Shown: positions 1-21,264 of the stretch, piece after piece
Numbering within the stretch: position 1 is the stretch's first letter
How the letters are laid out: each line of letters begins with the position of its first letter
Assembly (NCBI GenBank): GCA_013214025.1
Contig: JABSRN010000005.1
Location: 1 to 64,000, forward strand
Origin: Polyangiaceae bacterium
GTDB taxonomy: Bacteria > Myxococcota_A > Polyangia > Polyangiales > Polyangiaceae
DNA: 64,000 nucleotides
Direction: 5' to 3'
Notes under the pieces: model-generated
The model's database searches: none
What the model saw: only the letters and a program-made list of their open reading frames with translations
Told to the model about the DNA's origin: nothing
Translations under genes and position numbers: made by a program

Positions 1-38
1 CTGAGGCCCGCCACCGGAGCGCCGCTCTCAGTTGGACC

Positions 39-1409
39 TTACCCGGCGGCAGGGGGCTCTTCCGGAGAGGAGGGTTCCTTCCCGGGAGCTGCCTCTGCGG
101 CTGGTTTCTTCTCAGCTGCCTCTGGAGCAGCCTTCTTGGCAGCCTTCTTGGCAGCCTTCTTGGCGACCTTCTTGGCGACCTTCTTAGGAGTAGCCTTCTT
201 GGGTTCGGCCTTTTCAGCGGCGGGTTTGCCCTTCTTGGTGGTCTTCGGGGTCGTGCTCAGGAGATCCGACGCCATCTTGCGGGCTCGGTTGGTTGTCTCC
301 CAGCTGAACTCTTTGCGTCCAAAGTGTCCGTAAGCCGCCGTGGGGCGGTAGATGGGACGCAACAGATCGAGCTGCTCGATGATTGCCTTCGGGCGCATGT
401 CGAAGTGCTCTTTGACGTAGGCCGAAAGTTTATCGTCGGTGATCTTGCCGGTACCGAAGGTGTTCACGTAAACGCCGACGGGATCAGCGACGCCGATGGC
501 GTAGGCGACCTGGACTTCCGCTTTGTCCGCGACGCCGGAAGCCACGATGTTTTTCGCTACATACCGCGTGTAATACGCCGCTGAGCGGTCGACTTTGGAC
601 GGGTCCTTGCCGCTGAAGGCGCCGCCGCCATGACGACCGGCACCGCCGTAGGTATCCACGATGATCTTGCGTCCGGTCAGCCCGGCATCGCCGCACGGCC
701 CGCCGATGACAAAGCGTCCGGTGGGATTGATGAAGTACTTGGTATTCTTGTCCAGCAGCTTCTTCGGAAGCACCTTCTTGATGACCAGCTCCATGACGGC
801 TTCGCGCAGCTCGTCATTTTCGACCTCTTCTGAGTGCTGAGTCGAAACTACGACCGCGTCGATACGCTTGGGCGTGTCGCCGTCATATTCGATCGTGACC
901 TGGCTCTTGGCGTCCGGGCGCAGAAAGTCGACCTTGCCGGCTTTGCGCACCTCGCTCATCTTGCGCATCAGCGCGTGGGAGTACATAATCGGAGCGGGCA
1001 TGAGCTCTTTGGTCTCGCGACAGGCGTAGCCAAACATCAGGCCCTGGTCGCCAGCGCCCTGCTCTGTGAACTCGCCCTCGCCCTCGGTGACACCCTGAGA
1101 GATGTCCGGGGACTGCGGCTCAATGGCAACGAGCACACCGCAAGTGGCGTAGTCGAAACCCATCTCGGAACTGGTGTAGCCAATTTCTTTGATGGCTTCG
1201 CGCGCGAGCTTAGCAAAGTCGAGGGTGGCGGTGGTCGTGATCTCTCCGCCGAGGGCTACGAAGCCCGTCTTGCAGAAGGTTTCACAAGCCACGCGGCTGT
1301 TGGGATCCTGGGCCAGGCAGGCGTCAACGACGGCGTCAGAAACGGCGTCACACAGCTTGTCGGGATGTCCCTCGCCGACAGACTCGGACGTAAAAAGATA
1401 GTTACTCAT
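39..1409 (-). CDS. metK: S-adenosylmethionine synthetase with a Lys/Ala-rich C-terminal tail
   Basis: Makes S-adenosylmethionine from ATP and methionine in the cytoplasm. The first ~385 residues are a full-length Met[21 protein letters not shown] near the N-terminus, [12 protein letters not shown] in the middle, and [20 protein letters not shown] followed by [21 protein letters not shown]. The protein continues about 71 residues beyond the usual ~384-residue end (residues ~386-456). That extension is built from Lys, Ala, Pro and Glu with repeated KKA/AKK units, like histone H1 or other DNA/RNA-binding tails. A Shine-Dalgarno (aaggagcacc in sense) sits just before ATG at 1409. The ~190 nt upstream to the PDZ gene contain an AT-rich patch near 1505-1555 but no SAM riboswitch that I recognise. 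Enzyme identity is very secure; the tail's role is unknown. Confidence 0.97.
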
Positions 1410-1603
1410 AGGTGCTCCTTGGACTCTCTAAGTGCATGCGGCTAGGTGAGCTTTCAGTAGTGCCCGCCCCAGCGGCGCGCGGACCGTATCACACGGAATG
1501 CACCATTTGACTCACCGTATTTCTGGTATTTTGCGATTATTTTTACCGATCATTTCGCTTCCACTTTTGCCGGTGCGGCGTCTGGACGGTGGGCCCGGTA
1601 TCG

Positions 1604-2017
1604 TCAGGGACGCTGTGGCTGTCGGTGGTGTTTCTGAGCGGCAGTTCGCTTCAAGGTAACGCGAATCACCTCGTTCCCACGCTCAAGCGTGAGCTTAACG
1701 TTTGAGCCCTCATCTCCACCGAGGGCGCCTCGCAGATCCGCCGAGGACATATTTCGCACGTCATGCCCGTCGATGAGCAACACGATGTCCCCGGGCTGCA
1801 GGTCAGCGTTGGACGCGGCGAGGTCCTCCGGGATCTCTCGTAGTGTCAGGGTACCATCGGCCCGCTGTCCCAATATTGCTCCGATCGTGCCCGCTGCAGG
1901 GCTGCAGGAGACCGTCGAGAGGCCCACCGCGCCAATTAGGAGGGCGATAGTGACGCTTCCGGCACAGGACGAGACGATACCTCGATGCTTCTGCTCGCTC
2001 TGCTTGACTCGCCTCAT
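1604..2017 (-). CDS. PDZ-domain lipoprotein, hypothetical
   Basis: A 137-residue protein with a basic N-terminus, one hydrophobic segment and a lipobox-like LSTVSC at about residues 33-38, so probably a lipoprotein. After it comes one PDZ-type domain (about residues 45-125): ADLQPGDIVLLIDGHDVRNM matches the PDZ core in which a product is presented from a hydrophobic groove, and the domain ends KLTLERGNEVIRVTLKR. There is no protease domain, so it is probably a binding or scaffold protein at the envelope. It lies upstream of metK on the same strand with a ~190-nt gap, and divergent from the tRNA. Exact partner unknown. Confidence 0.7.
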   Translation of the reverse strand: MRRVKQSEQKHRGIVSSCAGSVTIALLIGAVGLSTVSCSPAAGTIGAILGQRADGTLTLREIPEDLAASNADLQPGDIVLLIDGHDVRNMSSADLRGALGGDEGSNVKLTLERGNEVIRVTLKRTAAQKHHRQPQRP

Positions 2018-2043
2018 CTCGTGCGTATGCTCGCCGCCCCTCG

Positions 2044-2115
2044 GCCAGCTTAGCTCAGCGGTAGAGCAGCTGTTTCGTAAACAGCAGGTCTCGAGTTCAA
2101 TTCTCGAAGCTGGCT
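2044..2115 (+). tRNA. tRNA-Thr (anticodon CGT)
   Basis: A complete cloverleaf can be folded. The acceptor stem pairs GCCAGCT (2044-2050) with AGCTGGC (2108-2114), with T2115 as discriminator. The D-arm is GCTC/GAGC. The anticodon stem GCTGT/ACAGC (2069-2073/2081-2085) encloses loop TTCGTAA, giving anticodon CGT at 2076-2078, which reads ACG (Thr). The T-arm TCGAG/CTCGA (2091-2095/2103-2107) encloses TTCAATT. CCA is not encoded. It is transcribed away from the PDZ gene. Confidence 0.95.
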
Positions 2116-2122
2116 CCGATAT

Positions 2123-2150
2123 CTGGTCCTAGGCAAATGCCTAGGACCAG
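2123..2150 (+). terminator. Perfect 12-bp palindrome just after the tRNA
   Basis: CTGGTCCTAGGC (2123-2134) pairs perfectly with GCCTAGGACCAG (2139-2150) across a 4-nt loop, only 7 nt after the tRNA. It is probably the tRNA's 3' processing or termination hairpin, but there is no T-run after it (tccagagtac follows), so it is not a canonical intrinsic terminator. It could instead be a protein-binding palindrome. Confidence 0.5.
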
Positions 2151-2581
2151 TCCAGAGTACGAGCCGTTCGACGATCGCTGCGTGGCCTGCCCCAGTCGGG
2201 GCAAGGGCAGGTCACTTCGCTCCGTTCGTCAACCGTGGCTCTACTGGAGTTATCTCTTTAGGTCCTCGCTCATTCGGAGCTGCGGGGAGGGGCGCGGCGG
2301 CGTGTTCGTTGATGCCCGGCGCAGCGTTAATGGGCGCGGAGAGTGAAGTTGAATGGCGGCGCAGGGGGAGGGTGAGAGGTTGATGAGCTGGCGCTCAGCT
2401 TCGTCTGGCCTGACTAGAGGCAGAAATCTCTAATTGTCTGACATCGACCTACAGTCTGATTGCCGCCGAATACGTTGAGAAATCGGCTGAGCGAGCAGTG
2501 CGATGAAAACATTCCTCAGTGCTGGCATCTCGTCCGCTGCATCCCTTGATAGTTTTGCTTACGGCTGGGAGACTATCCGGC
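2151..2581. other. Intergenic region, no gene recognised
   Basis: About 430 nt between the tRNA hairpin and the first vWA lipoprotein. A short open frame at 2137-2346 has no ribosome-binding site, no motif and unlikely amino-acid composition, so I do not call it. The promoter of the vWA gene should lie in the more AT-rich part near 2430-2520, but I see no convincing -35/-10 pair. Confidence 0.5.
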
Positions 2582-3946
2582 ATGAAGTTTCACTTAGTCT
2601 TAGGTTTGGGTGCGTTGGCTGCTGTTGCGGGCGCGTGTAGCGCGTCTTCCGACGGGGATGGTGTCAACGGTGGTACGGGCACGGGTACGGGCACTGCTGG
2701 GACGAGTGGCGACGGTGGTGCCGTCGACGGCTCGACCACCGCTGATGGCTCGGGTACGGGTGGTACATCCGGAGGAAATACCGGAAGCAATGCGGGCGGC
2801 ACTACCGGCACCGGCGGAACCACTGGAACAAGTACCGGTGGCTCTCTGCTCAACGACACGGAAGTGCCCGACGGATCCTTCGTTTACGACCCGGGCGCCA
2901 TTGTTGAGCCAGACGCCTGCGCTGACTTCAGCCAAGGTGCTGAACTCAAGCCCATCGCCATCTATCTGATGGTCGATAAGTCGGGCAGCATGATTCGTGA
3001 CGAACTCACGGATCCGGATACGGGTCAGGACATCACCTATTGGGAGGCGGCTACTCGTGGAATTCGAGGCTTCGTAGAGAGCCCGACTTCGGCCGGGCTG
3101 AAGGTGGCCGTCAACTATTTCTTCGGCGAAGAGTGCACGCCTGGCATGTACGACGTTCCGACCCTCGGTATGGGGACTTTGGATGGCAGCACCACAGGAC
3201 ATGCCGCGGCGGTGGTCAGTTCCTTTGGTGCTGATCCGATCTTGCCAGGCGGTGATGGCGATCAGAGCCTGGTTTACACACCCACCGGCCTCGGCGTTGC
3301 CGGGATGACCGATTTTTGCATCGCCTACGAAGCAGCCAACGCGGGGGAGACGTGTATTGGCGTACTGATCACCGACGGTGTGCCTCAGGGTAGCTCCGGC
3401 GGGGCGGGAACCTACGGCTGTACGACCGCAGACTTTCCCGGCACGGCTGAAAAGCCACACCCGGAAACCCAAATCGGCGAAGCGTGGGCCTTGGGGATCC
3501 AAACCTACGCTATGGGCATGACCGGCGCCGATTTTGTGAAATTGGAGTCATACGCAGAGGCAGGCGGAAGCGATTGCCAGCTCGACGATGATGAAAAACG
3601 TTACTGCGACGTAACCACTGGTCCGGGATCGTTTATTGACGCCCTCGACGCCATTCGCGAGCAGGCCATCAGCTGTGACATAGAGATGCCGGTTCCTCCG
3701 GGCGGTGGCGCGTTGGACTTGGCCAGTGTGGTCGTTACCTTTACTCCGAGCACCGGCGAGCCTTACGAGCTAACCAACGTCACCGGTGTAGGTAGCTGCC
3801 AAACCGATACCCAGTGGTACTACGATTACGCCGACGGCGGCTCGGAGCCCCCCACCGGCATTAAGCTTTGCGAACTCACCTGCACGACGATTGGCGACGA
3901 CGACGCTGGCAACCTCGGCATCACCCTCCTTTGCAAGCGCTCCTAG
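2582..3946 (+). CDS. vWA-domain lipoprotein with Gly/Thr-rich linker
   Basis: ATG at 2582 is chosen because it gives a short lipoprotein signal peptide (MKFHLVLGLGALAAVAGAC, Cys about residue 19) and has gggag ~12 nt upstream; the frame opens earlier at 2519 but that leader looks spurious. The mature protein begins with a ~85-residue Gly/Thr/Ser linker and then a von Willebrand factor A domain. KPIAIYLMVDKSGSM carries the MIDAS DxSxS motif (Asp132, Ser134, Ser136), and GVLITDGVPQG is the later MIDAS-type loop. The C-terminal part contains paired cysteines. It is expected on the cell surface as a metal-dependent adhesion or scaffold protein. It is followed 45 nt later by a second protein of the same plan, so the pair is probably co-transcribed and ancestrally duplicated. 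Confidence 0.85.
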   Translation: MKFHLVLGLGALAAVAGACSASSDGDGVNGGTGTGTGTAGTSGDGGAVDGSTTADGSGTGGTSGGNTGSNAGGTTGTGGTTGTSTGGSLLNDTEVPDGSFVYDPGAIVEPDACADFSQGAELKPIAIYLMVDKSGSMIRDELTDPDTGQDITYWEAATRGIRGFVESPTSAGLKVAVNYFFGEECTPGMYDVPTLGMGTLDGSTTGHAAAVVSSFGADPILPGGDGDQSLVYTPTGLGVAGMTDFCIAYEAANAGETCIGVLITDGVPQGSSGGAGTYGCTTADFPGTAEKPHPETQIGEAWALGIQTYAMGMTGADFVKLESYAEAGGSDCQLDDDEKRYCDVTTGPGSFIDALDAIREQAISCDIEMPVPPGGGALDLASVVVTFTPSTGEPYELTNVTGVGSCQTDTQWYYDYADGGSEPPTGIKLCELTCTTIGDDDAGNLGITLLCKRS

Positions 3947-3991
3947 CGCTTCTCCCGCATCCGTTTAGAAACTTAGAAGGCGAATATCATA

Positions 3992-5374
3992 GTGAAGTTA
4001 TCCATGATCAAAGGTGCTGGCGCGTTTTGCGCGTTGGCTCTGGTAGCGACTGCTTGTAGCGATGACACGACCGGCGACGGCTCCGACGGAAACGGGGGGA
4101 CTGGTGCCAGTAATGGCACGGGCGCCAGCGGTAGCACCGCAGGCAGCTCCGGCACGGGCGCCAGCAACGGCACCGGTGGCACCTCCAGCAACGGGACCGG
4201 CGGCTTTTTTGGCGGCTTTTTTGACGGCGGAACCGGAGACGACGACTCGGGGATGGAAGTTTGCGCATCCAACGCCCAGGACGTCGAAGCGACCCAGGCT
4301 CACCTGATGTTCTTGGTGGACCGCAGTGGTAGCATGAACTGTATGTTGCCCGAGCGTTGGGATGAGCTAACGGGTTTCCCTGACATCAACTCTGCCGCGG
4401 ATGAGATCGCCGTCTGCGAGACCAACCCTGCGAACCGCCTGGCGGGCAGCGAGTCCAAATGGGTAGTCACTACGGATGCACTGAAAAGCGCGTTGGCGGA
4501 TTTGACGTCTGAATCGAACATCAGCGCCGGCTTGACCTTCTTCCCCGCGACGGATTTGCCGGATGATAATTTTGTGGATGATTGTGCCGTCACCGGTACG
4601 CCCGACATCGCATTGCAAACGTTGAACACAGCACTCGTGACCAACATGAGCACGACCCTGGAGGGCGTTTCTCCGGCGGGTGCGACACCCCTTGCCGGCG
4701 CGACCATTGAAGCGCTGGCTAAGCTGGTCGGACAGGGCTTGGACGGCAAACCGTTCTTGGTACTCATGACGGACGGCAACGAGTCCTGTGACGGGACCTG
4801 GGAGGTGCCGGGTTCCCAGACTCAAGTTCAAAAAGACACGGTTGAGTACGCTCTCAATATGTTCAACATTCGCACGTTCGTAATCGGCGCACCGGGCAGT
4901 GAAACTGCGCGGGCGTTGCTGAGCGAACTGGCGTATCTGGGTGGTACTGCCACGACGGCCGACTGCGCCTACGGTGGCGGCGATCCTGCCGTGGGTGATT
5001 GCCACTTCGATCTCACGAGTTCCGGTGGTGGTGCCGATGCTGGTGCCGATGGCGGCGCGGGGACAGACTTTGCGGCTGAGCTAGCCGACGCTCTCAAGGC
5101 CATTGCGGCGCAAGCCGTCGTGACTTGTCAGTACGACGTACCGACAGGGGGACGCGTGGACCGCAGCGGCGTCATCATCAAGCTAGAGGCGAACGATCCG
5201 AGCGCATCGGTAACCTTTGAGCCCGCCGATGGTGATTGCGACAACGGGGCTAACGGCTGGATGTATTCGGAAGACGGGAATCAGATCCTGTTGTGTGGCG
5301 CGGCTTGCGACACTGCCGAAAGTGTACCGGGCAGGATCACCATCGATATCGCTTGCGACTCCCGTACTCAATAA
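3992..5374 (+). CDS. vWA-domain lipoprotein, paralogue of the preceding gene
   Basis: GTG at 3992 with agaagg upstream; an in-frame ATG at 4004 is an alternative. The signal peptide ends at lipobox LVATAC (about residues 18-23). A Gly/Thr/Ser linker of ~55 residues follows, then a GGFFGGFFDGG run, then a vWA domain: HLMFLVDRSGSMNC with MIDAS Asp110, Ser112 and Ser114, and LVLMTDGNESCDGTW as the second metal loop. The C-terminus is Cys-containing (TCQYDVPTGG, ILLCGAACD), with the same order of elements as the upstream gene. Predicted surface lipoprotein of unknown ligand. The gene pair ends at a strong intrinsic terminator at 5398-5424. Confidence 0.85.
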   Translation: MKLSMIKGAGAFCALALVATACSDDTTGDGSDGNGGTGASNGTGASGSTAGSSGTGASNGTGGTSSNGTGGFFGGFFDGGTGDDDSGMEVCASNAQDVEATQAHLMFLVDRSGSMNCMLPERWDELTGFPDINSAADEIAVCETNPANRLAGSESKWVVTTDALKSALADLTSESNISAGLTFFPATDLPDDNFVDDCAVTGTPDIALQTLNTALVTNMSTTLEGVSPAGATPLAGATIEALAKLVGQGLDGKPFLVLMTDGNESCDGTWEVPGSQTQVQKDTVEYALNMFNIRTFVIGAPGSETARALLSELAYLGGTATTADCAYGGGDPAVGDCHFDLTSSGGGADAGADGGAGTDFAAELADALKAIAAQAVVTCQYDVPTGGRVDRSGVIIKLEANDPSASVTFEPADGDCDNGANGWMYSEDGNQILLCGAACDTAESVPGRITIDIACDSRTQ

Positions 5375-13815: not shown

Positions 13816-16800
13816 ATGCAGAACCTGCAACCTATTTTGGTCGCGACCTTAGCGGACCTCGATCAGATCGCGGCCGCCGCGCGCGCTGCGCTGATTGGCG
13901 AGATTGTGCTCGTACCGATGGAGGGCGAAGTTCCGGCTGAGGGGACGCATTTCTTGGAGCTGCAGGCACCCGGATTGTCCGTGCCGTTCATTGTTCGGGC
14001 AACGTTGGAGGGCGTGCCTTCCAACGGCTTGTATCCGCTTCGGTTGGGGGCGCCCAACCCCCACGAGCTTCAGGAATTTTTGAGGAAACACTCTGCGCCG
14101 GAATCCGGGAGGGTGAATAGTCAGGGAGTTCCGCCTAGCGGTCAAGGGCCGGGGGAAGGGGCGGCCACGGCAGATGCCGAGCGTTCGGTTCTTCTGCCAG
14201 AACCGTTCAAGCGCGATCAGGCGTTGCCACGCTCGAGTCGCCCTGCCTTTGATTCGGTGAGCGGGGTTCGGCTCAGCGAAACGCCGGCAGAGGCTGCCAA
14301 AGATGACGAGCCGCGCCGGGATAGCCTCATCGACGCACTCGCTTTTGCCCAGGAAGACTCATTGCTCCGGCCGAGCTCTCGATTACTTTCAGCGGAGGCG
14401 CCGCGCCCGGACAGTCGTTATTCCGAGCGCCCTCCTGCCCCGACGGAGCCGCCGCCGGTTGAAGGGCGTAAGACTCGCTCCGAGCGACACTCGGAACGGG
14501 TGCACGAGAGTATCGCGCCCGCGCTGACGGGGCGGACTTTGGGCGATGGGCGCTATCTGATCCAGGAGCTACTGGGCGAGGGCGGTGTGGGCGCCGTGTT
14601 TCGCGCCACCCACTTGGCTCTAGATCGAGAGATTGCTCTGAAAGTTCTCCACCGATCGCACCGCAATGACCCGGAGTTCGATGCGCTTTTCGAGCGAGAA
14701 GCGCTATCCGCGAGCCGTCTCAATCATCCAAACGTGATGCAGGTCATCGACTTTGGGCGTGAACCGGATGGCATGCTGTACATCGCGATGGAATTGCTTG
14801 AGGGGGAGAACCTCGGCGATGTACTGGAACGAGGAGGCGCGGTTTCGCAGCTCAGGGCTGTGGAAATCATGATGCAGGTGTGCGCGGGGTTGGGCGCAGC
14901 GCACGACAGCGCGATCATTCACCGGGACGTGAAGCCTGAGAACATCATCACAATTGGCGGCGTCGACGATGATGGCGCGCTCATCGAGGTAATCAAGGTC
15001 TGTGACTTCGGTTTGGCCAAAGTCCAAGACGCGACGGGGTTGTCCAAGCACGGTACCCAGCAGGGCACCGTCAAGGGGACGCCGGACTATATGTCGCCGG
15101 AACAGGCCCGGGGCGAGCCGCTGGACCATCGGACGGATGTCTACGCCTGCGCAATCATCCTGTATGAGCTAGTTTGCGGAATTGTGCCTTTCGTGGCGGA
15201 AACCGCGGTTGGTGTCTTAACCAAACACGTTGTGGACTTGCCGGAACCGCCATCGGTGCACAATGCCGACGTTCATCCTGTGCTCGAAGCGATCATCCTC
15301 CGCTCCTTGGAGAAGGATGCGCGCAACCGGCATCAATCGGCTCGGGAACTGCGCGACGATCTGAAATCGGTGAGGGCGCTGCTTCAGCAGTCGCCCGAAG
15401 GCGAGGCGGGAGCCATGAGTCGCCCGATTGTCGAGCGCGTTCAGACCGGCGTCCACGCCATGACTGCCGGCATTGTCGCACCTCAGGCAATCGCTTCTGG
15501 GGAAGCAGTGGTCGGGCTTTCGGGGGATCCACGAGCCATTCCGTTGGTGCGCCCAGCGGCGGGCCTGAGCGTGCCCGTTGCGATTCCTCCGTCGCTGTCT
15601 CCTGCGCATCTGGCTCGATCAAGTAACGCGAACGCTGGGGAGCCTGTCAGCTCCGATGCGGCGCCACCGAGCAGCGCCATTCGGAGCAGTATGGTGGGCG
15701 CGCTCGCTGGGGAGTCTCGGGCGGTGCGGCTCGACAATCCGCAGGCGGGCTTCGCTTTCTTCTTGGATGCCCTTCTGGATTCCGTGACGGAGAGCCTCAA
15801 GGCCGAGTCGATGGAAGCTGAGTACAGGCGGGCGTTCGAGCGTCTGGCGGCTTCGGCGGGAGCGGTTCTCGCGGCACGCGTAGAAGTGAGCCTCATCCGT
15901 CGTGAGCTCAACGCTTCTTCTGCGATGATTGTGCAAACGGGTCTTGGGGAAGTCTACGAACTCAGTCAGCTCTACGGGGAGAGCTTGCCTCCGGCTCACC
16001 AATCATTGGTGGAGTTGATGTGCGCCCGACGTATCGTTTCGCTGACCTTTCGGGAAGGCGTGGAGCTGCGAGAGTTCGTCGATGGCTTGGCATTGTTGTC
16101 GAACCGTGGAGTTCCGAACGAGCAGCTCCGAGTTCAGCTCGCGTCAGCGCGCTTGGGTCATGTGGCTGTCGTGTTTGAGTCTGAACTGCATGGCCGCGCC
16201 CGGAAGCTCTCATTGAGGGTGGACACATGCATCTCTCGAGTCATCCAAGACTTGTACCTATTGCCTTCTCAGGGACGCTCTGAGGAAGTGCTCGATCGGA
16301 CGCGACAGTTGGTGCTGGCGACCGCAGTACGCTCACTGAACGCAGAACAAGTGCGGTTGTTTCTTGCCCATGGGGATTTAGTCAAGCGAGCACTTTCGAC
16401 TCATCCGGCTCTTGCGTCGTTTCCGATTCGGGAAAGCGTCATCATGTCTCTGTCGCCGACCACCTGCCTCAAGGTGGCGACGTTGACGTTGGCGTCCATC
16501 AAAAAGTGGACGGGGGCTGACGACCACAAGGCGTCGATCAATGCCCAAACGAAGATCATAGGCATCATAGTCCGCCGCTATATCTCTCAACGAAGTGTCG
16601 ATACCGACGCGGTGTTGATCGAGTCCTACCAACAAGGGCTGATGGCGCTGCCGGAGCTGCCGCCTGGCTTGCAGCGGCATATCGCTACGGAGCAAGCCGA
16701 AGACATCGGCGTTGACCCGATTCGATTTATTGATGAACTCGAACAAGTCGCAGACCCAATGGTGTTCTCCAAGCGCCTAGTGACCCTGTTCTCCGTCTTG

Positions 16801-17772
16801 GACGTGCTGGCGCAGCGGGAGGAGCTTGTGTCGGTTTCGGCCGTAATCAGCCAATTGAATGCCTTCGCGGAGCGGCACTCGACGAGCGGCACCCGGGAAG
16901 CTTTGGCGTGGGAGGCCCTACGGAGTGTTTCGTCTCCAGCCATACTCGATGCTGTTGCCGTCGCCCTACTCACCTCGGTGTTGCGGGATGTAGAGGCCGG
17001 ACGCACAGTGCTGGTGGCTGCGGGGCGCGCTGGGGCAGACGCGTTGTGTGCGGCGCGGACTCGTGAGGGTCTAGAGATCAGTCGCCCGCGCTTCGTGGCG
17101 ATCATGCGGGAGATCGGCGAAGACAGCGTCGTTGCATTGGCGGCGGAGTTGGAGCGCTTCGAGAGCGTAGACACGGCGGACCGGAGCCTGGTTGAAGACT
17201 TGTTGCGTTGTGCGCCGGACATGACCGACAAGGCGCTTGGCGATCAAATAGTTCGTTTCTTGAATCACGAAGAGACCACGATCCGTCGCCGTGCCGTCAC
17301 GACCCTCGCCACGGCGTGGGGCGCGAGGGCACGGGAAGAGTTGAGCCAAGCGCTTTCCGACACCGATGATGCGGTTCGGTCCGCGGCCTTTGCGGGGCTC
17401 GGCAAATCAGGGCTGATCGATCGCCGTGTGGTGGATGTGGCTCGCCGTCTCCTACAAGAAGGCGCAACATGTGGCCCAGAGCTTCAAGCGTCAGCGGCCG
17501 CGGCTCTAAAAAACACCATGCCCGAGGCCCGTGCGGCTTCCTTGTCTGTGCTCTTGGCGACTATGGAGCCGAGAACAAAGAGTTTCGTGGGCATCGTGAT
17601 TGATTTGCCGCAGATGAATGAAAATGCACTTGTCCTGGAGACTGTCGCAACAGTGTTGTTGACGATTGGTGGCGACGCTGGACGTCGGGCAGTGGAAAAG
17701 CGTGCCGCCACGTCTCGTGGCGAAGTGAAAGATCGATTGGAACGAGTGCTGGCTCGTTCTCCCGGGCAGTGA
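13816..17772 (+). CDS. Large Ser/Thr protein kinase with C-terminal HEAT-like repeats
   Basis: A 1318-residue eukaryotic-like kinase. Residues ~1-95 form a small beta-rich domain, possibly PilZ-like (weak call). A Pro/Ser-rich linker follows to ~235. The kinase domain (~240-530) is complete: glycine loop LGEGGVGAVF, Lys276 in IALKVL, HRD at 369-371 in IIHRDVKPENI, DFG at 397-399, and GTPDYMSPEQARG. So it should be active. It is followed by a low-complexity linker and ~650 helical residues that end in HEAT/armadillo-type repeats (EETTIRRRAVTTLATAWG; DTDDAVRSAAFAGLGKSG) at about 1150-1290, a likely protein-docking solenoid. No transmembrane helix is seen, so it is cytoplasmic. The next gene, 91 nt downstream, encodes an Hsp70-like ATPase; the two may work together. 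FHA proteins at 40.9-47.3 kb are possible readers of its phosphothreonines, by inference only. Confidence 0.92.
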   Translation: MQNLQPILVATLADLDQIAAAARAALIGEIVLVPMEGEVPAEGTHFLELQAPGLSVPFIVRATLEGVPSNGLYPLRLGAPNPHELQEFLRKHSAPESGRVNSQGVPPSGQGPGEGAATADAERSVLLPEPFKRDQALPRSSRPAFDSVSGVRLSETPAEAAKDDEPRRDSLIDALAFAQEDSLLRPSSRLLSAEAPRPDSRYSERPPAPTEPPPVEGRKTRSERHSERVHESIAPALTGRTLGDGRYLIQELLGEGGVGAVFRATHLALDREIALKVLHRSHRNDPEFDALFEREALSASRLNHPNVMQVIDFGREPDGMLYIAMELLEGENLGDVLERGGAVSQLRAVEIMMQVCAGLGAAHDSAIIHRDVKPENIITIGGVDDDGALIEVIKVCDFGLAKVQDATGLSKHGTQQGTVKGTPDYMSPEQARGEPLDHRTDVYACAIILYELVCGIVPFVAETAVGVLTKHVVDLPEPPSVHNADVHPVLEAIILRSLEKDARNRHQSARELRDDLKSVRALLQQSPEGEAGAMSRPIVERVQTGVHAMTAGIVAPQAIASGEAVVGLSGDPRAIPLVRPAAGLSVPVAIPPSLSPAHLARSSNANAGEPVSSDAAPPSSAIRSSMVGALAGESRAVRLDNPQAGFAFFLDALLDSVTESLKAESMEAEYRRAFERLAASAGAVLAARVEVSLIRRELNASSAMIVQTGLGEVYELSQLYGESLPPAHQSLVELMCARRIVSLTFREGVELREFVDGLALLSNRGVPNEQLRVQLASARLGHVAVVFESELHGRARKLSLRVDTCISRVIQDLYLLPSQGRSEEVLDRTRQLVLATAVRSLNAEQVRLFLAHGDLVKRALSTHPALASFPIRESVIMSLSPTTCLKVATLTLASIKKWTGADDHKASINAQTKIIGIIVRRYISQRSVDTDAVLIESYQQGLMALPELPPGLQRHIATEQAEDIGVDPIRFIDELEQVADPMVFSKRLVTLFSVLDVLAQREELVSVSAVISQLNAFAERHSTSGTREALAWEALRSVSSPAILDAVAVALLTSVLRDVEAGRTVLVAAGRAGADALCAARTREGLEISRPRFVAIMREIGEDSVVALAAELERFESVDTADRSLVEDLLRCAPDMTDKALGDQIVRFLNHEETTIRRRAVTTLATAWGARAREELSQALSDTDDAVRSAAFAGLGKSGLIDRRVVDVARRLLQEGATCGPELQASAAAALKNTMPEARAASLSVLLATMEPRTKSFVGIVIDLPQMNENALVLETVATVLLTIGGDAGRRAVEKRAATSRGEVKDRLERVLARSPGQ

Positions 17773-17863
17773 TCGCGCTCCGGGCGCCATCGGCGCGGCT
17801 GTTCTGCGTGGCGTTTCGCGGTAGAATAGCGGCCCCCCTTCGGGCAGAAGGCGATTCAACGAG

Positions 17864-18997
17864 TTGCGACCCCAGTGTTCGGCCATCGGCCTAGATTTCG
17901 GCACCTCGAGTTTGTTGTCGGCCGCGTCCGCTGCGGGACGGGTTCGTTTGCTTACCGATCCCCGAGGCCGCGTGGCGATCCCCACACGCGTTGCCTTCGG
18001 CGACGGCGGACGGGCGGTAGTCGGTTTCGCCGCACACCATCGATTGCGAGACGAGCCAGAGGCCCTGGAGGCCGTGCCGTCGTTTCGGCATTGGCTGGGA
18101 GCTCTAGCTAGCGAGGACGAGCCGGCGCCGGCTTCCTGGGCCGCTGGCGGAGAGCTTGTCGACAATGGCAGAGGGGAGTTGGCTTTTGTGACCGGGGGTG
18201 GCTTGTTCACCGCCGAAGAGCTATCGGCGTTGGTGCTACCTGAGGCGGCGCAACTCGCCCGACCCCACTTCGAGATAGGTAAGGTGATACCGGCGGTCGC
18301 GACAGTTCCTAGCGATACATCTGCCCAGGCGAAGACGGCTTTTCAGCGTGCGGCTCGACTGGCTGGGATTCATCTCCTGAGTTTTGTGGAGCAGAGCATC
18401 GCTGTGGTTTCGGCGGAGCCAGACATGAGAGCCGGACGGCACACCGTGTGCGTTTGCGATTTTGGCGCTGGAGGATTTGAGGTGTCGATCGTCGACGTTC
18501 GAGATGGCCAAATGCGAACCCTAGCTTCTCACAGAAGCGCGGCGCTCGGCGGGGATCAGGTGGACCGCCGGCTGGCGGAAGGAGCTCTGAGCCGGGGGGA
18601 GGCTGCCAAATTCGGTGAGTTTGATGACGGCGAGGCCTTGGCCTATCGCATCGCTTGTGAACGCGGGAAATGTGAGCTCCGAAGTCACAGCAGCGCACCG
18701 GTATCGTTTCTGGTTCAGGGCCGGCGGCAGCAGGTGATTTTGGAGCAAGCGGAGCTGGCGTCCGTCGCCTACGATTTGGTCGAGGCTGCGGTGGACGTAA
18801 CCAGGAGGTGTCTGGACGAGGTTGAGATGTCGGTCACCCAGATCAGTCGGTTGATTGTTGTCGGTGGTGGTGCTCGCCTCCCTCTCGCCACCGAAGCGGT
18901 CTCTCAGTTTGTCGACCGTTCGCCCAGCGGCTCGGTTGACGGCGCGACCGCTGTAGCGATCGGTGCGGCTGTATGCGCCAGCGCGTTCGCCAACTAG
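17864..18997 (+). CDS. Hsp70-like protein, ATPase domain only
   Basis: 377 residues that correspond to the Hsp70 nucleotide-binding domain: phosphate-1 loop IGLDFGTSSLLSAAS, phosphate-2 loop VCVCDFGAGGFEVSIVDV, and adenosine motif IVVGGGARLP. The ~230-residue substrate-binding domain and lid of DnaK are absent, so it cannot be an ordinary folding chaperone and may act as an ATP-dependent switch or scaffold. The only plausible start is TTG 17864, with agaagg upstream. It sits 91 nt after the HEAT-repeat kinase on the same strand. Its stop codon overlaps the stop codon of the convergent gene (shared CTAG at 18994-18997). Confidence 0.85.
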   Translation: MRPQCSAIGLDFGTSSLLSAASAAGRVRLLTDPRGRVAIPTRVAFGDGGRAVVGFAAHHRLRDEPEALEAVPSFRHWLGALASEDEPAPASWAAGGELVDNGRGELAFVTGGGLFTAEELSALVLPEAAQLARPHFEIGKVIPAVATVPSDTSAQAKTAFQRAARLAGIHLLSFVEQSIAVVSAEPDMRAGRHTVCVCDFGAGGFEVSIVDVRDGQMRTLASHRSAALGGDQVDRRLAEGALSRGEAAKFGEFDDGEALAYRIACERGKCELRSHSSAPVSFLVQGRRQQVILEQAELASVAYDLVEAAVDVTRRCLDEVEMSVTQISRLIVVGGGARLPLATEAVSQFVDRSPSGSVDGATAVAIGAAVCASAFAN

Positions 18998-19911
18998 TAA
19001 CCGTAAATTGGTGGCGGCGGAGCAAAGCGGTTGGCCGGGAACGCTTGGGGCAGTGCGGGCGGGGGGCGTGGCATGGGCCGCGGTGGGTACAAGCGGATAC
19101 CCCGGTTACGAAGGCCCTGCGCGTCGTCGTAGTAGAGCGTCAGAATCTCGCGCGGGGAGTTTGCGTGTTGTCGGCGGAAGGAGACCTCTCTAACGGTGCT
19201 CCACCGGCTCTCGCCATATTCGGTGCCGAGGTGTTGATTCTCTTCTTCGTGATAGGAACCGGCGCCCCCAGCGGGGCTCTGGGGGCCTGGTGAGCGAGTG
19301 CGCTGTCTACGCGTCGGTGTTCGAGACGGTTTCTTCTTGGTAACGGATGGCCTCTCCGAATTGTCTAAGCGTTTCAGTTCCCGCTGGGTCGCGGCGTTCT
19401 GACGAGCCCGGTGAGAGGGCTGGTGCCATCGTCGGCGGTGTCGTCGCTGTTCTGGGAAGAAGGCGGCTCCGACGATGCCGACGTTTTCCGGAGTGCCCAT
19501 ACGCGCCGAATAACTATTGTCGCGGTCGGTGAAGCGGAAAGCTGCGACACGCTGATGGGATGTGCGGAAGCCTGAGACGACCATAGAATCCCAAGCATCG
19601 ATCAGATAGCCGCGCTGCCCGGTGAAGCTGCCTCTTCGTCCACTGATTACATCGCGGCCATCGACGGTCAGGACAACTTCCACTCTTGAGGCCGTGTTGT
19701 TGCGGACACGGAGGTTGTAGCGCTGCCCTGCATTCCCCAAAATGTAGCGTTTCCCTGCGTGCCGATAACTCTTCAGGCTGCCTGGGCTGGGGGATTCGAT
19801 GCTCAACGAATACGGGGTTCTCGCGGCCGCCGTGCTGGTGAGCGTGAGCAGGGCGGTGCTAAGCAGGAATACTTGGGCGATTCGCTGCGGGGAAAACGAT
19901 CCATGGTTCAT
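18994..19911 (-). CDS. Exported protein of unknown function
   Basis: 305 residues. The signal peptide ends near STAAARTPYS. The following ~130 residues form a beta-rich domain with NLRVRNNTASRVEVVLTVDG, GYLIDAWDSMVVSGFRTSHQ and RMGTPENVGIVGAAFF, a pattern I recognise from uncharacterised exported proteins of proteobacteria but cannot name. The second half is low-complexity, rich in Arg, Ser, Pro and Thr, ending in a Pro-rich tail (PPRPMPRPPPALP). agaagg stands before ATG 19911. Divergent from the beta-barrel-like gene at 20005; convergent with and overlapping the Hsp70-like gene by 4 nt. Confidence 0.7.
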   Translation of the reverse strand: MNHGSFSPQRIAQVFLLSTALLTLTSTAAARTPYSLSIESPSPGSLKSYRHAGKRYILGNAGQRYNLRVRNNTASRVEVVLTVDGRDVISGRRGSFTGQRGYLIDAWDSMVVSGFRTSHQRVAAFRFTDRDNSYSARMGTPENVGIVGAAFFPEQRRHRRRWHQPSHRARQNAATQRELKRLDNSERPSVTKKKPSRTPTRRQRTRSPGPQSPAGGAGSYHEEENQHLGTEYGESRWSTVREVSFRRQHANSPREILTLYYDDAQGLRNRGIRLYPPRPMPRPPPALPQAFPANRFAPPPPIYGY

Positions 19912-20004
19912 CTCTGGTGCCTTCTCAGGGAGTGATGCTGAATTGGACTCCTCGCTCCGAAGATCCTTGGGTCTGGGTCCATCTGGGGGGAAGATAGGGT
20001 CTCG

Positions 20005-21264
20005 GTGAGACGAATTACCTGCTTATTGCTGGCTACGGCCATGGCGTGGGGCCCCGCTGCGGCGGCCCAGAGCCTGAAAGACTCCGTCCGCGGTCATCTG
20101 CACGATAACCTGGAGGGCAAAGAAAAAGCCCGCCCGTCGAAGAAGTCGAAGAAAGCCAAGAAACCACGAAAGAAGCGGCGCCGCAGACATCGGCCGGCGG
20201 GAGAGCTGATCTGGAGTTCGGAACCAGATGCATCGGACACGTCTCCCAAGGAAAACCTTCCCCGGCGAGTGATCGGCAAGTATCTGAAGATTGATCCCCG
20301 AGTGGGCTTCGGGGTGCGGGGTTGGATCGCGCAAAGCTATCCGGCGGTGGATGTGGCGCCGGCGGCATATACGGTTTGGTCCGCCTCGCTCAAAGGGAGG
20401 TTCTTCAACTTCGTCAATTTACATCACGGCTATGTGGAGTCGTCGGCTCTGGCGGCCCCCTCTCGTCCGTCGGCCTCGCAAGCCGCACAGATCGGTGCGC
20501 TAGTTCCCAAGGCGGCCTGGATCCTCGGCGTCGTTGGGATCCCGGTCAATCGTACTTGGGAGCCGATCATCCGCTACGAGACCCGCGCATTCTCGACGAA
20601 GGCGACGCCGAATCGAGAGATCCGAATTGTGCCTTACGACATTTCCACAGCAGAGCTGGAGGCGGCCAACATTACGAGCGGAGAGCTGACCAGCAGCGAG
20701 CTCGATGTGACGAGCAGTTTTGAAACATTGATTTTCGCTGTGCGTTATGACCAATCGCTCTCTTCATCCAGCGTCGTCGAGTCCGGAGGGCAGCGCACGC
20801 CCTTACCGCCGTTGTATTTCGGTGTTGGGCTGATGGAGTACCGCAAGCCGTATCAATTGGTCGTGGGGGACTCGGTAAACGACCGATTCCTATTCAGCGG
20901 TCAGTTTCGAGGCGCTGGCCTTGCCTTCGGGTTCCGAACGGCTTCAAAACCTCGGAACTTCTTTCTCGATTTTGCGTCGCAAGTTGGTATCGGCGAGGTC
21001 GAACTCACGGACGGTTTCACGCTCAACGAGTTGCTCCCCGCTGATTGGTTGATCGGATACGTCCAGGGCAATGCAACCGTGGGCTATCTGCACCCGCTAT
21101 GGGTCGGGCCGCCCACTCTTTTTCTCTCAGCGGAGCTATCTGGCGGCGGCGCCACGTTCTTCTACGTCGAGACCGCTGTGGAAGAAGGCGAGCAGATCCA
21201 GGCGCCGCTACTGAACTGGGACTTCTTGGGTGGCGCGAATATCGCGTTGACTATGACCTTTTAG
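20005..21264 (+). CDS. Exported, probably outer-membrane protein with a basic N-terminal segment
   Basis: 419 residues from GTG 20005. The signal peptide runs to about residue 21 (MAWGPAAAAQS), followed by a very basic stretch at ~40-65 (KKSKKAKKPRKKRRRRHRP). The rest alternates aromatic and polar residues in short strands (FFNFVNLHHGYVESS, ILGVVGIPVNRTWEPIIRYE, FFLDFASQVGIGEVEL) and ends in a hydrophobic strand with a C-terminal Phe (NIALTMTF), as in beta-barrel outer-membrane proteins. No family can be named. The basic block could bind LPS, nucleic acid or peptidoglycan. Confidence 0.65.
   Translation: MRRITCLLLATAMAWGPAAAAQSLKDSVRGHLHDNLEGKEKARPSKKSKKAKKPRKKRRRRHRPAGELIWSSEPDASDTSPKENLPRRVIGKYLKIDPRVGFGVRGWIAQSYPAVDVAPAAYTVWSASLKGRFFNFVNLHHGYVESSALAAPSRPSASQAAQIGALVPKAAWILGVVGIPVNRTWEPIIRYETRAFSTKATPNREIRIVPYDISTAELEAANITSGELTSSELDVTSSFETLIFAVRYDQSLSSSSVVESGGQRTPLPPLYFGVGLMEYRKPYQLVVGDSVNDRFLFSGQFRGAGLAFGFRTASKPRNFFLDFASQVGIGEVELTDGFTLNELLPADWLIGYVQGNATVGYLHPLWVGPPTLFLSAELSGGGATFFYVETAVEEGEQIQAPLLNWDFLGGANIALTMTF

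Follow-up and report, generated by a model that had tools for sequence, protein, structure and literature searches.

Why would a protein kinase be encoded beside an Hsp70 relative that consists of a nucleotide-binding domain (NBD) and little else? Such a pair lies on the forward strand of the window analysed here, a stretch of 64,000 nucleotides at the start of contig JABSRN010000005.1 from a Polyangiaceae bacterium. An initial annotation had proposed that the NBD acts as an ATP switch for the kinase or is its substrate. Judged from sequence comparisons across the family and the class, the window protein looks like a reduced Hsp70 NBD that derives from a chaperone module linked to a kinase, and less like an ATP switch than like a leftover or repurposed pseudo-ATPase of that module.

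The gene pair and its surroundings

The two genes, the parts of the kinase and the adjoining open reading frame (ORF) are listed below.

13816-17772, plus strand: Hanks-type Ser/Thr kinase of 1318 aa (ATG start), with a conserved N-terminal domain and a C-terminal helical/HEAT region
13816-14085, plus strand: N-terminal domain of the kinase, about 90 aa, common to related kinases, without a convincing Pfam or PDB match
14560-15330, plus strand: catalytic domain of the kinase, aa 249-505, with complete motifs (Pfam Pkinase, E 2e-43)
15796-16875, plus strand: front part of the C-terminal helices, aa 661-1020, less similar to the two orthologous kinases introduced below than these are to each other, most clearly in aa 901-1020 (16516-16875)
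17257-17511, plus strand: HEAT_2 match, aa 1148-1232 (Pfam, E 2.2e-7)
17864-18997, plus strand: Hsp70 NBD-only protein of 377 aa (TTG start), with replaced catalytic and J-contact residues, without linker or substrate-binding domain (SBD)
18994-19911, minus strand: convergent neighbour ORF outside the module, with a start resembling a signal peptide (by eye) and no Pfam family

From its N-terminus, the kinase consists of the domain of about 90 aa, a linker, the catalytic domain, a second linker and the helical region with HEAT. Its assignment to the Hanks-type Ser/Thr kinases rests on a complete set of catalytic motifs found by Pfam and by alignment, with the glycine loop, K276, E295, HRD (369-371), N376, DFG (397-399) and PE (428-429) all in columns that are invariant between the window protein and the two orthologues introduced below. 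The ORF, the Pfam Pkinase match and these columns bear out the earlier description of a 1318-residue kinase with all catalytic motifs. The C-terminal solenoid of about 650 residues from the same description holds up in part: HEAT is recognised by Pfam over 85 aa, and aa 637-1318 come out as entirely helical in a single-sequence model, though one of low confidence (pLDDT 46.8). This model and that of the Hsp70-like protein (pLDDT 37.4) are too poor for a fold search. That the N-terminal domain might be a PilZ domain was suggested by reading the sequence and then dropped: one of 13 members gave a weak Pfam match, to YkpC, and a PDB search with the domain returned nothing better than E 0.56. A defence system was rejected likewise: among the proteins submitted to PADLOC, the two kinases matched through their kinase domain alone, and neither of two NBD-only proteins, nor the lidless Hsp70, nor the REC-J protein was recognised.

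The 377-aa protein covers positions 1-373 of 599 of the HSP70 profile PF00012 (E 9.7e-43) and ends at the point where the linker of an Hsp70 would start. Of the features of an Hsp70 chaperone it thus has the NBD, without the ATPase residues, the linker and the SBD, in agreement with the initial annotation, which had described an NBD lacking its substrate-binding domain. A frameshift past 18997 that might hide an SBD had been named there as a possible objection; no hidden SBD was detected. The best hit of an SBD profile in the six frames of 18700-20700 reached E 0.77 (3.4e-51 for a positive control whose sequence also belonged to the profile itself), and tblastn with the SBDs and J proteins of the orthologous loci gave at best E 0.095 in 18700-20700 and E 0.11 across the whole window. 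No relative of the SBD or of the REC-J protein was found in any frame, either downstream or anywhere in the window. The place that SBD and J gene take in the orthologous loci is occupied by the convergent ORF, the stop of which overlaps that of the Hsp70-like gene by 4 bp.

Orthologous loci and lidless Hsp70s across the class

A search with the C-terminal region of the kinase matched at least 33 of 108 genomes of the family at E 0.001, its own included, with up to nine candidates scored per genome and the weakest matches probably being generic HEAT. The top two foreign matches (E about 6e-94) were in genomes G009 and G023, and the top two foreign matches of the Hsp70-like protein among 59 genomes lay at the same two loci; below them followed mostly generic Hsp70s. 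Orthology of the kinases rests on reciprocal best placing by score and on gene order. In a tree of 46 NBDs, the window protein groups with the Hsp70s of G009 and G023 with a support of 99/100; its terminal branch measures 5.56 against a median of 0.23 (about 24 times), so that this placement is uncertain and may be biased, and gene order agrees with it. Orthologues of both genes are adjacent in three genera, in the same order and on the same strand.

In G009 and G023 the kinase is directly followed by the Hsp70 on the same strand and then by a third gene. The Hsp70s (544 and 540 aa, Pfam 488 bits) align up to profile positions 500 and 491 of 599, which means that the β part of the SBD (SBDβ) is present and the lid absent, and they retain the catalytic residues. 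The third gene, which overlaps the Hsp70 gene by 4 bp with the starts chosen, has a product here termed REC-J. It measures 243 aa in one genome and 240 aa in the other; a J domain is recognised at E 1.9e-12, and the N-terminus resembles a receiver domain weakly, scoring 21.3 and 14.1 bits where Pfam requires 30.2. The window thus contains the orthologous solenoid kinase and, directly downstream, an Hsp70 of the same clade, while SBDβ, linker and REC-J gene are absent. The initial annotation was correct in calling the arrangement unlike a normal dnaK locus. J domains preceded by a weak receiver-like stretch are encoded directly downstream of lidless Hsp70s in several families of the class, namely at L069 (6287-7018, minus strand), at L070 (11553-12275, plus strand) and in the J genes of L216-L220.

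How widely the linkage is conserved, a check suggested at the outset, receives a divided answer. It holds in G009 and G023 and fits the Hsp70 tree, but it is rare: an Hsp70 and J gene of this kind accompany the related kinase C-terminus at only two of the 29 loci fetched. The fetched stretches span 4.3 to 18 kb; several come from short contigs, and some hold only the last part of the C-terminus. A contig scan yielded 80 loci matching the kinase part; tblastn at 1e-3 did not detect the other parts (C-terminal, N-terminal, Hsp70 or J) at any of them. The REC-J pair found matches at E 1e-20 or better in at least seven of 317 genomes of the class, with up to eight candidates scored per genome; in the window's own genome, where all 51 candidates were scored, the best match reached E 2.4e-9 and was confined to the J part.

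Lidless Hsp70s with J genes are present in other families of the class. A J gene lay no more than 600 bp downstream at 10 of the 12 lidless loci examined, a figure that includes J genes known beforehand at seven of the 12; three of the five lidless loci found by Hsp70 similarity alone had one. Canonical DnaK loci, 21 of which were picked by hand, had a matching J gene downstream in no case and upstream in 12. A kinase was encoded within 3 kb at 12 of 30 lidless versus none of the 21 canonical loci (Fisher p 6e-4, a value flattered by the kinase-side query, by fragments, by short contigs and by the few families, which make the loci phylogenetically non-independent) and within 5 kb at 14 versus one. 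The lidless set, from which G009 and G023 were excluded, comprised 10 loci found by J or Hsp70 similarity and 20 picked by hand from a search whose query came from a kinase-side locus, and two of the 14 kinases (L216 and L286) are fragments. Conversely, the 16 lidless loci without a kinase at 5 kb argue against a fixed module.

The lidless loci vary in detail. No HEAT match was found in the kinases of L217, L219, L220 and L275, so the solenoid belongs to the family of the window kinase. Between kinase and lidless Hsp70, L275 (6209-7063, minus strand) encodes a protein with a DnaJ match just above the cut-off (28.1 versus 27.8 bits) whose HPD motif reads HPN, and L287 (6162-7046, minus strand) one with a sub-threshold J match (16.5 bits) in which HPD reads HPA. 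For L283, a length of 521 aa was obtained. At L224, in genome G219 from another family of the class, lidless Hsp70, J protein, an NBD-only Hsp70-like protein and a kinase follow each other in an operon-like order (neighbours 1-4492). That NBD-only protein (1172-2317, minus strand; 381 aa, HSP70 positions 2-372) adjoins the kinase too and takes a position in the tree apart from the window NBD.

Residue changes and divergence

In a MAFFT alignment of the window protein with 19 other Hsp70s (E. coli numbering, with positions assigned by motif), the window NBD carries the replacements K70R, R167S, N170E, E171Q (an assignment that requires gap-free alignment of a stretch of equal length; phmmer against BiP sets a one-residue gap there), P172S, T173I, G197A, T199G and D201E. 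The 19 other proteins hold the usual residue at all nine positions except for a single T199S. We take K70, E171, T199 and D201 to be hydrolysis residues of DnaK, while R167, N170 and T173 are presumably its contacts to the J domain. Positions 12 and 13 differ as well, yet they vary among the other Hsp70s (T12: 11 T, 6 S, 2 F; N13: N in 12 of 19) and are therefore no mark of the window copy. Some nucleotide-pocket residues are still present (GLDFGT, DFG and VGG..R). By the replacements at the hydrolysis positions, the window NBD is probably a pseudo-ATPase that does not hydrolyse ATP.

Sequence identities between the three loci differ by domain:

N-terminal domain of the kinase: window/G009 36%, window/G023 33%, G009/G023 42%
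Catalytic domain of the kinase: window/G009 50%, window/G023 58%, G009/G023 52%
C-terminal region of the kinase: window/G009 35%, window/G023 34%, G009/G023 48%
Hsp70 NBD: window/G009 33%, window/G023 30%, G009/G023 71%

Divergence of the kind seen in the NBD is missing from the catalytic domain, where the window kinase is as similar to its orthologues as these are to each other. The C-terminal region, in which a tree leaves the branching among window, G009 and G023 unresolved, falls into two parts. In aa 661-1020 the window kinase is 29 and 31% identical to the two orthologues versus 54% between G009 and G023, while aa 1021-1318 show no contrast (39 and 37% versus 39%). Within the first part, aa 901-1020 are 58% identical between the orthologues and 23 and 28% in comparison with the window, like unlinked homologues. 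Among the 45 pairs that can be formed from ten kinases, identity in the first C-terminal part exceeds that in the second most strongly for G009/G023 (by 15 points; the next pair reaches 5).

G023 also encodes a paralogous solenoid kinase (L071, on contig C149) with no Hsp70 on its 9-kb contig. Compared with the G023 kinase, this paralogue shows the same excess in aa 661-840 (53%), whereas aa 901-1020 (35%) lack it, which makes the latter stretch the best candidate for contact with Hsp70 or J protein. Its relaxation in the window kinase would be expected both if it had co-evolved with an altered partner and if the contact had been lost.

Origin and possible role of the window NBD

We put at about 45% the reading in which the pair is a reduced descendant of the module of solenoid kinase, lidless Hsp70 and REC-J protein, with the NBD as a non-hydrolysing, nucleotide-binding subunit of the kinase. 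In the intact module, Hsp70 and J protein would most likely form a chaperone pair dedicated to the kinase, acting on it or for it, with ATP turnover as its gate. The window lineage would then have lost the J gene, SBDβ and the linker (loss rather than gain being the assumed direction) and changed its ATPase and J-contact residues, while the Hsp70-like frame stayed open and the kinase domain was conserved as usual. What remains would most likely be a regulatory subunit that binds nucleotide without hydrolysing it and docks on the helical C-terminal region of the kinase. Nucleotide binding, kinase binding and kinase regulation by the window NBD are what we infer from these comparisons, and an NBD still regulating the kinase appears to be the likeliest single reading. 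The relaxed aa 901-1020 count against a subunit, since the old docking may be lost. A wider version, in which the class uses lidless Hsp70 and J cassettes as subunits of Hanks-type kinases in several arrangements and the window chaperone became a pure pseudo-ATPase subunit after dropping J protein and client domain, seems possible if doubtful.

The missing SBD, linker and J gene, the replaced catalytic and J-contact residues and the relaxed solenoid stretch would also be expected of a relic, that is, a functionless and decaying Hsp70 gene left behind once the J gene was gone, with the kinase working alone like its unlinked homologues. No Hsp70 neighbour occurs at 27 of the 29 fetched related kinase loci, and among eight genes compared the Hsp70-like gene ranks top in GC at the first codon position and bottom at the third. 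Even so, its GC at the three codon positions (0.709, 0.529 and 0.656) still resembles that of a coding sequence and comes close to its neighbours, the NBD architecture is retained, and 377 codons have stayed open despite a terminal branch of several estimated changes per site, all of which renders decay rather unlikely. An NBD with a new job unrelated to the adjoining kinase, such as an actin-fold scaffold, would account for very strong divergence in an open frame and for the relaxation of the candidate docking stretch; we regard it as unlikely, because the gene has kept its place right behind the kinase, the arrangement also seen in G009 and G023.

The original proposal of a substrate or ATP switch, according to which the NBD goes through ATP cycles and serves the kinase as a phosphorylation target, draws on the adjacency of the genes and on the remaining pocket residues. 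As a switch it is weakened by the replacement of the aligned hydrolysis and J-contact residues and by the absence of a J gene at the locus, the linker that would connect hydrolysis with a client domain is missing, and we now judge the proposal quite unlikely. Kinases are abundant in genomes of this group, and in view of the rarity of the linkage among related kinase loci the two genes might simply be chance neighbours. Such an explanation is highly improbable given the conserved order and strand in three genera and the difference between lidless and canonical Hsp70 loci in kinases within 3 kb.

The window pair represents neither a new fold nor new chemistry. Its value lies in a natural contrast beside one kinase, with a lidless Hsp70 and J protein in two genera and a bare, degenerate NBD in a third, which makes it directly testable whether an Hsp70 can regulate a kinase without chaperoning. 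Beyond this locus, the data suggest that lidless Hsp70, J protein and Hanks-type kinase are associated across the class. HSPA13/STCH and YegD likewise have an Hsp70 ATPase domain without a substrate-binding domain, a feature shared by the window protein. It is not of the YegD type, however, scoring 21.9 bits against a cut-off of 331 with NCBIfam PRK11678, which we take to be the YegD model.

In the portion of the literature searched, no description of a module of lidless Hsp70, J protein and Hanks-type kinase was found. Hsp70 paralogues act in regulation in Myxococcus xanthus, namely StkA, SglK and PilZ-DnaK (PMC4319316, PMC8265645, PMC10313047); the word kinase is absent from the main text of PMC8265645 as available and occurs three times in that of PMC4319316, where two passages mean DifE. 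NBD-only Hsp70 genes have been reported in GAP1-N2 GTPase clusters, with kinases in another theme there, yet these clusters are described mostly from actinobacteria and firmicutes and centre on GTPases (PMC7159879); a Pfam scan of four proteins flanking the pair found no GTPase among those four. A further parallel is offered by Ssz1 of the fungal ribosome-associated complex Ssz1-Zuo1, a lidless Hsp70 that binds ATP without hydrolysis and has a J-protein partner (PMC7083937). In contrast to that complex, our loci have no known ribosome link and have a kinase as neighbour, the Hsp70s of G009 and G023 keep their catalytic residues, and the window copy is devoid of SBDβ and of a J gene at the locus. 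The likeness is that the Hsp70s of the three-gene module are lidless with an adjoining J gene, and that the window NBD, like Ssz1, is probably non-hydrolysing.
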